Positions 50,401 to 60,231 of a stretch of DNA of 64,000 nt are shown one piece after another (positions within the stretch are counted from its first letter, which is position 1; each line of letters begins with the position of its first letter). The position numbers and the translations under genes are program-made. The DNA lies in the NCBI GenBank assembly GCA_947503925.1, contig CANNFQ010000009.1, positions 62,001-126,000 on the forward strand. Direction: 5' to 3'. The DNA comes from an uncultured Paracoccaceae bacterium (GTDB taxonomy: Bacteria > Pseudomonadota > Alphaproteobacteria > Rhodobacterales > Rhodobacteraceae). The notes under the pieces are model-generated. The model worked only from the letters and a program-made list of their open reading frames with translations. It made no database searches and was not told the origin of the DNA.

Positions 50401-50796
50401 CTATGTTGCAGCGATGAATGCGATGGCGGGGTCTTCTATCTCGCCCTAGCGGTCGCTCATCACGCAGGTCACGCGGTTGCTGTGGGCCATGTCGACGGCA
50501 GCGAGGGTTTCGGTCGGCGTACCGTAGATGGCGGACTATTTGATAGCCTCAAAGCCGGCCTGCGCGGCGGTCAGTTTGCCATCGACGAATTCGACTGCCT
50601 TCAGGACGCCCTTGCCCGTATAGCGGGACTGGTCGCCTTCGCGTTTTTACACGACCTTCAGTGCTCCGGTGGAAGCGCCGGAAGGCACGGCTCCACGTCC
50701 CATAGCGCCGTCTTCGAGATTGATGTCCACGTTGACGTTCGGGTTGCCTCGGCTGTCTAGGATTTCAGGGGCGATGATATCGATGATCGTACTCAA
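50401..50796 (-). pseudogene. eno: Enolase pseudogene, internally deleted and with stops
   Basis: The minus strand reads [20 protein letters not shown], then [20 protein letters not shown] and TGALKVV, the enolase N-terminus. A TAA follows, then KREGDQSRYTGKGVLKAVEF and a TAG. The same frame jumps to the enolase C-terminus (ETLAAVDMAHSN, TCVMSDR, stop, GEIEDPAIAFIAAT, stop). About 280 central residues with the catalytic lysines and metal ligands are gone, and the start codon reads TTG. It lies 10 nt downstream of pyk and was probably the last gene of that operon. Confidence 0.9.
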
Positions 50797-50806
50797 TGGT
50801 GTGTCC

Positions 50807-52234
50807 TTATTTGCCAAGATAGGCGATCTTTAGCGAGTCTGTGCCGCCAGCTTGGCCATGAACCGATCCGGATGTCACTACAACCGGGCGATCAGGCCGA
50901 ACCAGATTTTCAGGTGCAAGATGCGATGGGATGCGGCCTTCGCGGCTGGAAGAGAACTCTTCCACGCTGGTACTGACGATAGGTGTAACCCCCCAGACAA
51001 GGCAAAGGCTTCGTGCGACTTTTTTCGAGTGACAGATTGCGAGAATGGGGATGGCGCTACGATTCTTCGAAACTCGCAGCGTCGTGGCCCCGGTTGTCGT
51101 AAACGTGGCAATGCAGCTCGCATCCCTCAAATCTGCCAAGGTGCTGGCTGCACTTGCGATTGAGCTTGAATCGTCCGGGGCATCAATCAGAGCTGTTTTG
51201 ACGCTCGAATTCAACGAACGGGAGGCAGATTCGGTCGCGTGGGCAATTTCGGCCATCGCCGTAACGGCTTCGACCGGATATTGACCCGCTGCGCTTTCTG
51301 CTGACAACATGACCGCGTCTGTGGACTGAGACACCGCATTGGCGACATCCGATGTTTCCGCCCGAGTGGGCAGAGGTGCTGAGATCATGCTTTCAAGCAT
51401 CTGGGTGGCAACAATGACCGGTTTGCCATGTGACCGGGCGTTTGCCACCAGCGATGCCTGGATGGCCGGCAAATCGTGCCAATCGCACTCAACGCCCAAG
51501 TCTCCACGCGCAACCATTATGGCGTCGGTGGCGTGGAGAATTTCGTCGATATTTTGAACAGCAACGGGTTTCTCGATCTTGGCAACGATCTTCGCTAATC
51601 CGTCGGTCAAACGGCGCAGACGCTTGATGTCTTCTGCAGTCTGCACAAAGGAAATAGCCACCCAATCAACCCCCAGTTCGAGCGCAAACCGCAAGTCGTT
51701 CCGGTCCTTTGGTGTGATCGCGTCAAGCTTCAGCGTGGTTTCGGGAAATTTGATCCCCTTTCGGTCCCGCAAAGCCGCCTTGTTGAGAACCTCGGCAGTG
51801 ATAGCGCCGTCATCGCTCTCGACAACGCGCAACCTGATGCGGCCATCGTCGACGAGAATCATGTGGCCAACCTCAACAGTGCCAAAGATTTCGGGATGGG
51901 GCAGGGGCACGTCGTTCTTCTGGGTGGGATCACGGACCAATCGAATGCGATCCCCGATGGCTAGCGATCTTTCCCCTCCTGGTACCTCACCGATGCGAAG
52001 CTTCGGACCCTGCAAATCCGCGAGAATGGCGATGGGTCGACCAAGGTCACTCTCTGTTTTGCGAATGGCTGCATGAACCCTGGCATGGTCTTCGTGGCTG
52101 CCGTGGCTGAAATTCATCCGAAAGACGTTCGCGCCCGCCTCGGCGAGAGCCTTGATCTTGTCGTAAGAATTGGACGAGGGACCCAACGTGGCTACTATCT
52201 TCGTCTGCCGGGGCGGGTGATTATGAGTGATCAT
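50807..52234 (-). CDS. pyk: Pyruvate kinase
   Basis: The enzyme transfers phosphate from PEP to ADP, giving pyruvate and ATP. The 475-residue protein has [11 protein letters not shown], the substrate/K+ site [13 protein letters not shown], the catalytic-lysine motif [17 protein letters not shown], the metal-site ARGDLGVE and the C-terminal allosteric-domain fold. It starts 11 nt after the glycerate kinase gene and may be dedicated to the pathway encoded here rather than be the housekeeping copy. Confidence 0.95.
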
Positions 52235-57570: not shown

Positions 57571-58539
57571 TCAGCCGCGCCCGCGCAGGCGCGGGTCAGC
57601 GATCAAGTAAAGGATGTCGACGACAACATTGATAAAGACGAACATGGCAGCGATCAGAACCAGATAGGCGGCCATCACCGGAATATCCCCGAAGGTCACG
57701 GACTGGATGAACAACAGGCCCATCCCCGGCCACTGAAACACTGTCTCGGTGATGATCGAGAAGGCGATGAGGGAGCCAATGTTCAGCCCGATAATGGTGA
57801 TCACCGGTACCAGCGTGTTGCGCAGCGCGTGGCCGAAATGCACGACCCGCGGTGCCAGCCCCCGCGCGCGGGCGAATTTGATATAGTCGGTGCGGAGCAC
57901 TTCCAGCATTTCCGAACGCACCAGCCGCATGATCAGCGCCATCTGAAACAGGGCCAAAGTTGTTGACGGCAGGATCAGCGCTTTCAGACCGCCGATGGTC
58001 AGGAAATTGGTGGACCACCCGCCGATTTGTGTTACCTCTCCGCGCCCAAAGGACGGCAGCCAGCCCAAGGTAACTGAAAAGATATAGATAAGAAGGATGC
58101 CGATCACGAAGGTTGGCAACGAAACCCCGATCAAAGATAAAGGCATGATCGTTTTGCTGATCCAGGAGTGTCGATTGATCCCGGTGTAGACGCCCAGCAA
58201 GACCCCCAACACAATCGCAACCACGGCCGACGTGGCAACCAGTTCCAGCGTGGCAGGCATACGCTCGGCAATCAGCGTCGAAACCGGGCGTTGCAGCGCG
58301 TAGGAAATGCCGAAATTGCCCGACACGGCATTGGAGCCAAACCGAGCGAACTGTGCCAGGAAAGGATCGTTCAATCCCAGTTTTTCGCGCAGCGCATCGC
58401 GGTCTTCGACCGAGGTTTCCTGCCCGACCATGTTCGAGATCGGGTCACCCACGAAATTGAACAAAAGGAAGGATACCAGCCCGACGAAGATCATCGTCAT
58501 GAGCGCCTGAAAGAGCCTGTTGATAAGCTTTAGAAACAA
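57571..58539 (-). CDS. Dipeptide/oligopeptide ABC transporter permease (DppB type)
   Basis: This 322-residue permease has six expected helices and DppB features: LLFNFVGDPI after helix 1, KLGLNDPFLAQFARF, and the contact loop MLEVLRTDYIKFARARGLAPRVVHFGHALRN. It lies 99 nt after the binding protein gene, a somewhat larger gap than elsewhere in the operon. Confidence 0.93.
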   Translation of the reverse strand: MFLKLINRLFQALMTMIFVGLVSFLLFNFVGDPISNMVGQETSVEDRDALREKLGLNDPFLAQFARFGSNAVSGNFGISYALQRPVSTLIAERMPATLELVATSAVVAIVLGVLLGVYTGINRHSWISKTIMPLSLIGVSLPTFVIGILLIYIFSVTLGWLPSFGRGEVTQIGGWSTNFLTIGGLKALILPSTTLALFQMALIMRLVRSEMLEVLRTDYIKFARARGLAPRVVHFGHALRNTLVPVITIIGLNIGSLIAFSIITETVFQWPGMGLLFIQSVTFGDIPVMAAYLVLIAAMFVFINVVVDILYLIADPRLRGRG

Positions 58540-58638
58540 GAGAGCATCCTCTGGTCAAAAAAAACGTGGCGATTTCGGTTGGAAGTTCGGGGCCGGACAG
58601 GCACACCTTCCAGGTGTCTGTCCGGCAGTCTTGGTCCA

Positions 58639-60231
58639 CTACCGGTAGGTCAGATACCGAAAGCGTGGATCGTTATCAGCCGACATCGGCATGTCGAACT
58701 TGTCGGACATTGCCCAGACAATGACCTTATGATGGATAGGGACGTAGTTGACGTTGTCATCCACATTTTTCCACAGATCGGCAATCATCTGATCGCGCTT
58801 GGCCAGATCGATCTCGACCTCGATGGCATCGGTCATTGCATCGACCTCTGGGTCAACCCAGCCAGTTCCGTTCCAGCCCTCGTCGGCGGACTTGTACAGG
58901 TAAGAAAAGGCAAAGTGCGAATCCAATGTCGGCACACCCCAGCCCAGCATGTAAAAATCGGTTTCCCGGTTGTGGATCTTCGGGAAATGCAGGGTCTTGG
59001 AAATCGCCGAGAGCGACACGTCGATGCCGACCTTGGCCAGCATGGCTACTGCTGCCTGACAAATTGCCTCGTCATTGATGTAGCGATCATTCGGGCAATC
59101 CAGCTGGATCGAAAACCCATCGGGATAGCCGGCCTCGGCCAGCAACGTGCGGGCTTTTTCCGGGTCGTAGGCCAGACGCTCATCCAGTTCTTCAGAATAG
59201 CCATGCACCGCAGGCGATGTCACCACACCTGCCGGGATCGCAAAGCCGCGCATCACCTTGCGCTGGATCGCGTTCACGTCGATGGCATGGTAGATCGCCT
59301 GACGCACTCGGATGTCCTTGAACGGATTTTCATCCACATTTGCCGTCAGCAGCTTGTCGACACCTTGGTTCATGCCCAGGAAGATGGTCCTGACCTGTGC
59401 CACCTGCTTGACCTGCAGGCCGGGGGTGTTCTCAATGCGCGCCAGATCCTGTGTTGGCGGGTCAAGCAGGAAGTCAATTTCACCTGAGAGCAATGCGGCC
59501 ACTCGCGTCGCAGGGTTGGAAATTGGCGTAAACTCAATTCGGTCCAGCTCGTGCGGATATTCGCCCGCGCCCCACCAGTCAGGGTTCTTTTCCAGAACCG
59601 TGCGGATGCCCGGCTCGCGCAGAGCCAATTTGTAAGGACCTGTTCCCATCGCATTGCGAACCGCAAAGGTCTCCTCACCGGCGCTGCGGTCTTGCGGTTG
59701 GGTCACGTCATTGGCTTCCGACCAGGCTTTGGACATGATGAAAATCGTGGCCAACTGGTTCGGCAGGATCGGGTTCGGACCTGATGTTTCGATATGAACC
59801 GTCATCGGGTCAACGATGGTGACACCTGTCACGCTCTCGATATAGCCCTGATAGTCTGAAGTTTCCGACTTCGCGCGCTCGATGCTGAACTTCACATCCT
59901 CCGCCGTGAAGTCAGAGCCATCGTGAAACTTGACACCTTGGCGCAGATTGAATTCCCAAGTGGTGGGGCCGATTGGTTCCCACGAGGTCGCAAGACCAGC
60001 TACGAATTTCACGTCCTTGTCCGGATAGACAAGTGAATCGTAAATCTTCCGCGACGCCGCAATAGTTGGCGCTTCGCTGGCGGACATTGGGTCCATCGTC
60101 AGGGCGTCACCCTGTGCCGCCCATCTCAGCACGTTTTCCGCGGCGGCCGACATTGTGGTCACGCTGAGGCAAGTCGCGGCCACGGCCAGCACTCTTGCCG
60201 CAGCGAATGCGGTGGTTGATCGAAGTTTCAT
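58639..60231 (-). CDS. Family 5 extracellular solute-binding protein (DppA/OppA type)
   Basis: The 530-residue periplasmic receptor has a signal peptide (AARVLAVAATCLSVTTMSAAA), then NVLRWAAQGDALTMDPMSAS and FNLRQGVKFHDGSDFTAEDV, typical of family 5. I choose the ATG at 60231 with AAAGGGGGG upstream; the longer frame adds 16 unlikely residues. It is the first gene of the operon that ends with the enolase relic. Ligands of the family include peptides, opines, sugars and conjugates, so the substrate is open. Confidence 0.92.
   Translation of the reverse strand: MKLRSTTAFAAARVLAVAATCLSVTTMSAAAENVLRWAAQGDALTMDPMSASEAPTIAASRKIYDSLVYPDKDVKFVAGLATSWEPIGPTTWEFNLRQGVKFHDGSDFTAEDVKFSIERAKSETSDYQGYIESVTGVTIVDPMTVHIETSGPNPILPNQLATIFIMSKAWSEANDVTQPQDRSAGEETFAVRNAMGTGPYKLALREPGIRTVLEKNPDWWGAGEYPHELDRIEFTPISNPATRVAALLSGEIDFLLDPPTQDLARIENTPGLQVKQVAQVRTIFLGMNQGVDKLLTANVDENPFKDIRVRQAIYHAIDVNAIQRKVMRGFAIPAGVVTSPAVHGYSEELDERLAYDPEKARTLLAEAGYPDGFSIQLDCPNDRYINDEAICQAAVAMLAKVGIDVSLSAISKTLHFPKIHNRETDFYMLGWGVPTLDSHFAFSYLYKSADEGWNGTGWVDPEVDAMTDAIEVEIDLAKRDQMIADLWKNVDDNVNYVPIHHKVIVWAMSDKFDMPMSADNDPRFRYLTYR

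Follow-up and report, generated by a model that had tools for sequence, protein, structure and literature searches.

Why should a peptide-type importer and an M20-family amidohydrolase be encoded in one run with a glycerate kinase (GK), a pyruvate kinase (PYK) and the remains of an enolase gene? The question is raised by a stretch of 64,000 nucleotides (the window) from an uncultured Paracoccaceae bacterium, positions 62001-126000 of contig C9 in its 4.75-Mb genome (G000). The minus strand of this window carries, at 50392-60279, eight intact genes and an enolase pseudogene, transcribed in the order from a family-5 solute-binding protein (SBP) to the enolase relic (Table 1). Open reading frame (ORF) coordinates, Pfam and NCBIfam agreed with the nine minus-strand elements of a preliminary description of this locus, all of which overlap or lie no more than 99 nt apart. 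The gaps are 99 nt between the SBP and permease B, 22 nt between the permeases, 4 nt between permease C and ATPase D, 11 nt between GK and PYK and 10 nt between PYK and the relic. Overlaps of 8 nt join ATPase D to ATPase F (taking the first ATG of F as its start) and ATPase F to the M20 gene (ATGCTTGA), and one of 4 nt (ATGA) joins M20 to GK. We share the view of the preliminary description that this grouping exceeds chance, because of these three successive overlaps from ATPase D to GK and because the lower block recurs in Pelagimonas varians; the operon genes are presumably all co-transcribed.

The reading we favor, and to which we give an even chance, is that of a single catabolic operon made of two blocks, one for the import and cleavage of an amide (block A) and one for the conversion of glycerate to pyruvate (block B), linked through released glycerate. 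The ABC importer of block A would import a compound that has both an amide bond and a free carboxylate (an N-acyl amino acid, for example), to be split in the cytoplasm by the M20 enzyme. Block B would be a pre-existing cassette that was joined to block A at the GK start codon: its class II GK would convert glycerate to 2-phosphoglycerate, the housekeeping enolase would form phosphoenolpyruvate, the cassette's own enolase being dead, and the cassette PYK would produce pyruvate. Glycerate would most economically come from the cleaved compound itself, either directly, being its acyl group, or by way of one or two housekeeping reactions. We infer both the substrate class of the operon and the release of glycerate in the M20 reaction.

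To follow each part of the operon in other genomes, even samples of GTDB were searched with the GK (394 genomes of the family, 56 of the genus, and GTDB contigs), the SBP (394 genomes), the M20 protein (384) and the PYK (374 and 380). The GTDB scan with GK returned at least 559 relatives among 586 stretches, of which the best 80 were examined, and neighborhoods were inspected for 42 of 43 genomes with a GK at E 5.2e-77 or better (G245 was left out), 20 SBP loci and 6 of 19 M20 loci. In Pelagimonas varians (locus L128), positions 9999-12659 matched window positions 50721-53381 as one blastn piece (85.1% over 2662 columns), and in a Sulfitobacter metagenome-assembled genome (L125) the match is cut by the end of the contig inside PYK (84.3% over 2368 columns). 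These two loci are the only ones of the best 80 with a PYK directly 3' of GK (90-92% protein identity, 92% for the PYK of L128), and in both, as in the window, the two genes are adjacent and co-directional. Immediately after its PYK, L128 retains an enolase stub made up of the first 25 codons; in protein, this stub is 96% identical to the enolase of the window's own genome. Downstream of the relic, L128 and the window share another, weaker match (67% over 186). The possibility that the relic is an unrelated fragment was set aside, since the stub recurs after PYK in L128, although intact enolase genes also lie near three loci of M20 kin (see below).

Of the relic itself, residues 1-86 and 342-379 remain, all in a single frame that is interrupted by several stops; the middle has been deleted, and no intact frame is left. 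Each piece is 66% identical to the intact enolase encoded elsewhere in the genome (C1:1088050), by which the dead operon copy is therefore backed up. The operon PYK (485 bits to TIGR01064, cut-off 306) is 48% identical to the genome's other pyruvate kinase (C14:81160).

The cassette match stops no more than 2 nt from the GK start codon in L128, L125, L038 and L126. Upstream of this point, three of the four carry a TRAP-type operon (L128:683-12573, L038:762-10822, L126:1086-11137) that ends in GK or GK-PYK. The genes of this operon were scored in L038 and recognized by matching protein starts in L126 and L128; the L038 profiles were GntR, a DctP-like protein (below cut-off), SDR, BKACE (NF053538) and 3-hydroxyacyl-CoA dehydrogenase, the last two above their NCBIfam cut-offs, together with UxaA-like and gamma-carbonic-anhydrase genes. 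The TRAP operons of Pelagimonas varians, Parasedimentitalea denitrificans and G193 thus resemble the window in a GK of 75-78% identity and, in Pelagimonas, in the PYK and enolase stub that follow it, but they differ in their TRAP transporter, SDR, BKACE and 3-hydroxyacyl-CoA dehydrogenase-like genes and gave no M20 match. Glycerate is an apparent product of these operons. A maximum-likelihood tree of 83 GKs placed the window GK within the TRAP/PYK group (support 100/99) and with L125 and L128 (98/85). On the strength of the blastn match to L128, the shared enolase stub and this placement, GK-PYK-ENO was probably already a unit when it came to join the M20 operon, with both lineages losing the enolase later. 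The contiguity of the block in Pelagimonas varians likewise upholds the earlier proposal that GK, PYK and the enolase remnant belong together.

The kinase had been described as a glycerate kinase of the MOFRL type, and we place it in class II: it has the DUF4147 and MOFRL domains and the stretch DGTDGPTNAAG, which fits the motif D-x-G-x-D-[GP] quoted for class II GKs in the excerpted text of PMC2063504. Its predicted structure has the fold of TM1585, to which it is 32% identical in the structural alignment, and motif-like stretches are invariant across 19 aligned members. It matched two NCBIfam equivalog models for glycerate kinase, both below cut-off (158 bits against 550, 132 against 670), scores which leave the membership standing, as the names of these models suggest narrow archaeal equivalogs. 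Relative to the genome's other MOFRL kinase (C1:1301026; 402 residues against 377), the window GK has a shortened linker and one further gap. Characterized bacterial class II GKs are listed as forming 2-phosphoglycerate (excerpt of PMC2063504). As GK, PYK and enolase appear to be a unit and 2-phosphoglycerate is the substrate of enolase, 2-phosphoglycerate is also the likely product of the window GK. At another Pelagimonas varians locus, an enolase paralog (L164:2832-4142, 41% identical) and a divergent MOFRL kinase are separated by about 6 kb.

Block B has published counterparts. The excerpted part of PMC2063504 notes class II GKs organized with PYK in Pseudomonas, M. extorquens and A. vitis, the last in the tartrate (ttuD) operon of Agrobacterium vitis. 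In the gcl cluster of Pseudomonas aeruginosa (PA1498-PA1502, pykF-glxK-glxR-hyi-gcl), a TM1585-type GK likewise stands beside a second pyruvate kinase, and the cluster is induced and carries allantoin-derived glyoxylate to pyruvate (excerpt of PMC12694930). It differs from the window in that glycerate comes from glyoxylate via Gcl and GlxR, no importer or M20 enzyme is named among its five genes, and the text of PMC12694930 makes no mention of enolase. None of Gcl, Hyi, GlxR or the tartrate enzymes was found among the operon genes and ten flanking genes scanned. The A. vitis operon differs from ours in serving tartrate utilization, and it is not known to contain an amidohydrolase. The preliminary description knew of no pathway of this form. 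Such a statement can apply to the front end at most, since the GK-PYK unit has been published for glyoxylate/allantoin and for tartrate (PMC2063504; PMC12694930); what is new is confined to the front end.

Turning to that front end, the M20 protein matched TIGR01891 with 336 bits (cut-off 153.75) over positions 2-365 of the 366 of the profile. Its 458-aa ORF is overlong at the N-terminus, where alignments to most of the listed relatives do not begin until about residue 42-73; the likely true start is the ATG at 54575. An antiphage role was also considered for this enzyme and dropped, as PADLOC gave no match. Alignment of the SBP to E. coli-type DppA (chain 8z1y_F) placed a Pro at the position of Asp408 and an Arg at the equivalent of Arg355. 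In DppA, Asp408 is the anchor of the peptide alpha-ammonium group; with Pro in its place, the SBP lacks this mark of a dipeptide importer (DppABCDF), and its residue pattern would suit, though only weakly, an N-blocked, carboxylated ligand.

Within the family sample, no relative of the SBP exceeds 61% identity, and none of the 20 loci of SBP kin, including that of this genome's own paralog, has a GK, a PYK or a relative of the window M20. Seven of the 11 closest such loci with fuller context (L097-L107) do have an M20-family gene of another branch (that of L102, five that are 48-82% identical to it and one at 28%), six of the seven adjoining transporter genes and one sitting a gene away; Pfam assignment of these genes was run for L102 only, and blastp of the L102-type branch against the window M20 gave no significant match. 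From the M20 side, ABC ATPase genes were found in 3 of 19 loci of about 4 kb. Of six loci taken wider, to which these three were deliberately assigned, only the same three proved to be of Dpp type, and none of the six had a GK or PYK. Like the window, these Dpp-type loci have importer and M20 genes adjacent or close, but with no GK or PYK match. Importer and M20 enzyme are an ordinary pairing, known from other loci of the family.

Several observations weigh against a single operon linked through glycerate. A search for the nine-gene set had been proposed with the preliminary description, and no second copy was found in any other genome examined through the GK, SBP, M20 and PYK searches; the junction of blocks A and B was likewise found in none of them. 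Near-full-length GKs occur in 43 other genomes of the family sample, and a full-length GK of more than 36% identity in just one of the 56 genus genomes, G000 itself. With tblastn at 1e-8, and with some contigs short, no M20, PYK or enolase relative was detected near GK in the 42 loci, nor an M20 in the best 80 GTDB loci; in other genomes, TRAP operons devoid of M20 precede the cassette or its GK. Relatives of the PYK are rare (3 of 374 and 1 of 380 genomes, our own included), and the two other genomes that have one (L228, L229) lack the GK. M20 enzymes of this kind are near-universal in the family (370 of 384 genomes). The SBP pattern is not specific either, as the Arg is kept and the Asp is absent from the loop in two relatives and in the genome's own two paralogs. 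Intact enolase genes occur near three loci of M20 kin (L207, L235, L236) and one of SBP kin (L109) without GK or PYK, so that finding an enolase gene close to an M20 gene does not by itself point to a pathway. No assay of any GK of the compact clade was found in the literature searched, and P. aeruginosa can dispense with its gcl-cluster pyruvate kinase for growth on allantoin (excerpt of PMC12694930). The sequence of steps given in the preliminary description, from an imported amide through glycerate to pyruvate, is therefore coherent in that transporter and M20 families are neighbors elsewhere and the cassette has homologs, but the homologous transporter and M20 loci come without the kinases, an outcome that the description had itself named as speaking against it.

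At the three M20 loci the enolase matches (L207:4128-4196, L235:5880-7151, L236:12595-13866) lie a few kb from the closest M20 relatives, perhaps reflecting a chromosomal neighborhood. At L229:367-11405, a PYK of the same type follows an ABC importer with a PhnS-like SBP, a PgtA-like regulator (both below cut-offs) and a histidine phosphatase; judged by eye, L228:2773-10771 resembles it but has an additional gene ahead of PYK. No enolase was found after PYK in either at E 0.1, and these loci possibly serve the uptake of phosphoglycerate or another organophosphate.

The strongest alternative is that the cassette is a passenger. The ABC-M20 genes would then import and cleave peptides or N-acyl amino acids that have nothing to do with glycerate, while GK-PYK would merely have been captured behind their promoter and would use glycerate supplied by other routes. 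We regard this as a real possibility, if not the expected one. It is favored by the separation of blocks A and B in every other locus examined, by the presence of the cassette behind a different, TRAP-type operon, by the nesting of the window GK within the TRAP/PYK group, and by the beginning of the blastn match so close to the GK start codon, as in a recent join. However, the 4-nt overlap of M20 and GK and the operon's own divergent regulator argue for selection on the joint unit, and the combination of importer and GK is recurrent: 28 of the 42 sampled loci and 36 of the best 80 GTDB loci have, around their compact GK, a different family-5 SBP that is 24-29% identical to that of the window and mostly about 2 kb away. 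As an independent hint that imported glycerate conjugates are finished off by compact GKs, this pairing is the best available, although shared neighborhood ancestry explains most of the count. In the GK tree the importer label applies to 38 rows (L129 and L150 by loose matches only) with 8 changes, clustered but not one clade.

A more specific form of the two-block reading, which we consider doubtful, is that the operon is dedicated to scavenging N-glyceroyl amino acids, which would be imported and split by the M20 enzyme to amino acid and glycerate for GK and PYK, and that the compact GK clade marks wider systems for glyceroyl conjugates. N-glyceroyl amino acids, the example chosen in the preliminary description, are members of a real compound class, as they are reported, in the excerpted text of PMC12135873, as adducts of amines acylated by the glycolytic by-product cyclic 3-phosphoglyceric anhydride. 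No catabolic entry point for glyceroyl conjugates was found in the literature searched. The wider systems would include a recurrent cluster of D-aminoacyl-tRNA deacylase (dtd), compact GK, S15/CocE hydrolase and family-5 ABC importer genes (L042:9020-17850, with equivalents in L132-L204) in Ruegeria, Roseobacter and Tateyamaria. Among the best 80 GTDB loci the S15/CocE gene is present in 33, 29 of these with the second SBP, and dtd in 43 (Pfam was run for L042). Like the window, this cluster has a compact GK near a family-5 importer and a hydrolase, of a family that includes esterases and peptidases; it differs in that the GK is 43-51% identical, S15 replaces M20 and there is no PYK match. A single literature search on Ruegeria and glycerate kinase returned nothing on it. 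At L129:9947-21008, in Maritalea porphyrae, a compact GK lies beside PhnS-like binding proteins, an NtrC/PgtA-like regulator and a HAD phosphatase.

Glycerate might instead be reached through serine, freed by the M20 enzyme from N-acyl-serine or serine peptides and converted by a housekeeping transaminase and hydroxypyruvate reductase before GK and PYK act, a route we find unlikely. M20 aminoacylases do release amino acids. Glycerate is also listed as formed in serine degradation, with class II GK in the serine pathway (excerpt of PMC2063504). No transaminase or hydroxypyruvate reductase, however, is present among the operon genes. Moreover, serine is more simply deaminated to pyruvate. Least probable of all is a shift of the compact GK to a different 2,3-dihydroxy acid, which would take the pathway to another product, as might be read from its shorter chain, its distance from TM1585 and its sub-threshold equivalog scores, for the PYK and enolase remnants that accompany GK in two lineages point to 2-phosphoglycerate and its motif-like stretches are invariant.

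Table 1. Features of the operon and its control region, in window coordinates
Feature	Position	Strand	Basis
Family-5 solute-binding protein (SBP)	58639..60231	-	SBP_bac_5 5.5e-92; signal peptide by eye; open frame to 60279
Permease B, DppB/OppB type, TTG start	57571..58539	-	BPD_transp_1 (Pfam, NCBIfam)
Permease C, DppC/OppC type	56613..57548	-	BPD_transp_1 (Pfam, NCBIfam)
ATPase D, OppD/DppD type	55610..56608	-	ABC_tran and oligo_HPY
ATPase F, DppF type	54568..55644	-	ABC_tran and oligo_HPY; likely start ATG 55617
M20-family amidohydrolase/aminoacylase	53376..54575	-	Peptidase_M20, TIGR01891; likely start, by homolog alignment and junction sequence
Compact class II (MOFRL) glycerate kinase (GK), 377 aa	52246..53379	-	DUF4147 and MOFRL
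Pyruvate kinase (PYK), the genome's second	50807..52234	-	PK and PK_C; NF004491 and TIGR01064 above cut-off
Enolase pseudogene	50392..50796	-	Enolase_C match containing stops
Cassette GK-PYK-eno'	50721..53381	-	Homologous to L128:9999-12659
TetR-family regulator, divergent from operon	60404..61087	+	Pfam TetR_N and TetR_C_30
Perfect 17-nt palindrome, TAGGTATG-T-CATACCTA (TAGGTATGTCATACCTA)	60332..60348		Between TetR and SBP genes
Stem-loop in the 99-nt SBP/permease gap	58540..58638	-	Fold -32.3 kcal/mol

The operon is probably under the control of the divergent TetR-family regulator, a weakly PsrA-like protein (83.9 bits in NCBIfam, below the cut-off of 300) for which tblastn at 1e-8 in the compared loci above 3 kb recovered only copies from the window's own genome. 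The palindrome between the regulator and SBP genes is the likely candidate operator. Its pattern matched once in the window and in 0 of 100 shuffles; it is the sole genome site at up to 2 mismatches, a uniqueness not significant by itself, as the reversed pattern used as control gave 2 of 2 matches. The stem-loop between the SBP and permease B genes (z -1.90; 6 of 200 shuffles equally low) perhaps raises the share of SBP in the transcript.

Beside the relic end of the operon lies a gene for D-cysteate sulfo-lyase CuyA (48854-49873, plus strand; 545 bits, cut-off 450), a relative of which (76%) occurs about 8 kb from GK in G193 (L038:19015-19899). A separate minus-strand cluster at 41173-47586 encodes sarcosine-oxidase-like subunits, a family-3 ABC importer and a protein of the malate/L-lactate (weakly sulfolactate) dehydrogenase family. 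Upstream of the regulator, 61713-63857 (minus strand) encodes a large RTX-repeat protein with a serralysin-type C-terminal domain. For every PLSDB plasmid record the best match was below 60% identity, and a search limited to the RepC type placed the genome's only match on contig C11, not on C9.

Taken as one operon of two blocks, the locus suggests that this marine bacterium feeds on a glycerate-containing molecule. If glycerate is freed from an imported amide, the operon would provide a catabolic entry for glyceroyl conjugates and a bacterial fate for products of glycolytic damage. Even if it is not, the locus presents a portable glycerate-to-pyruvate cassette that swaps front ends at its start codon and sheds its enolase where the housekeeping copy suffices, and the pairing of a compact GK with a family-5 importer and a hydrolase in Roseobacters is directly testable.

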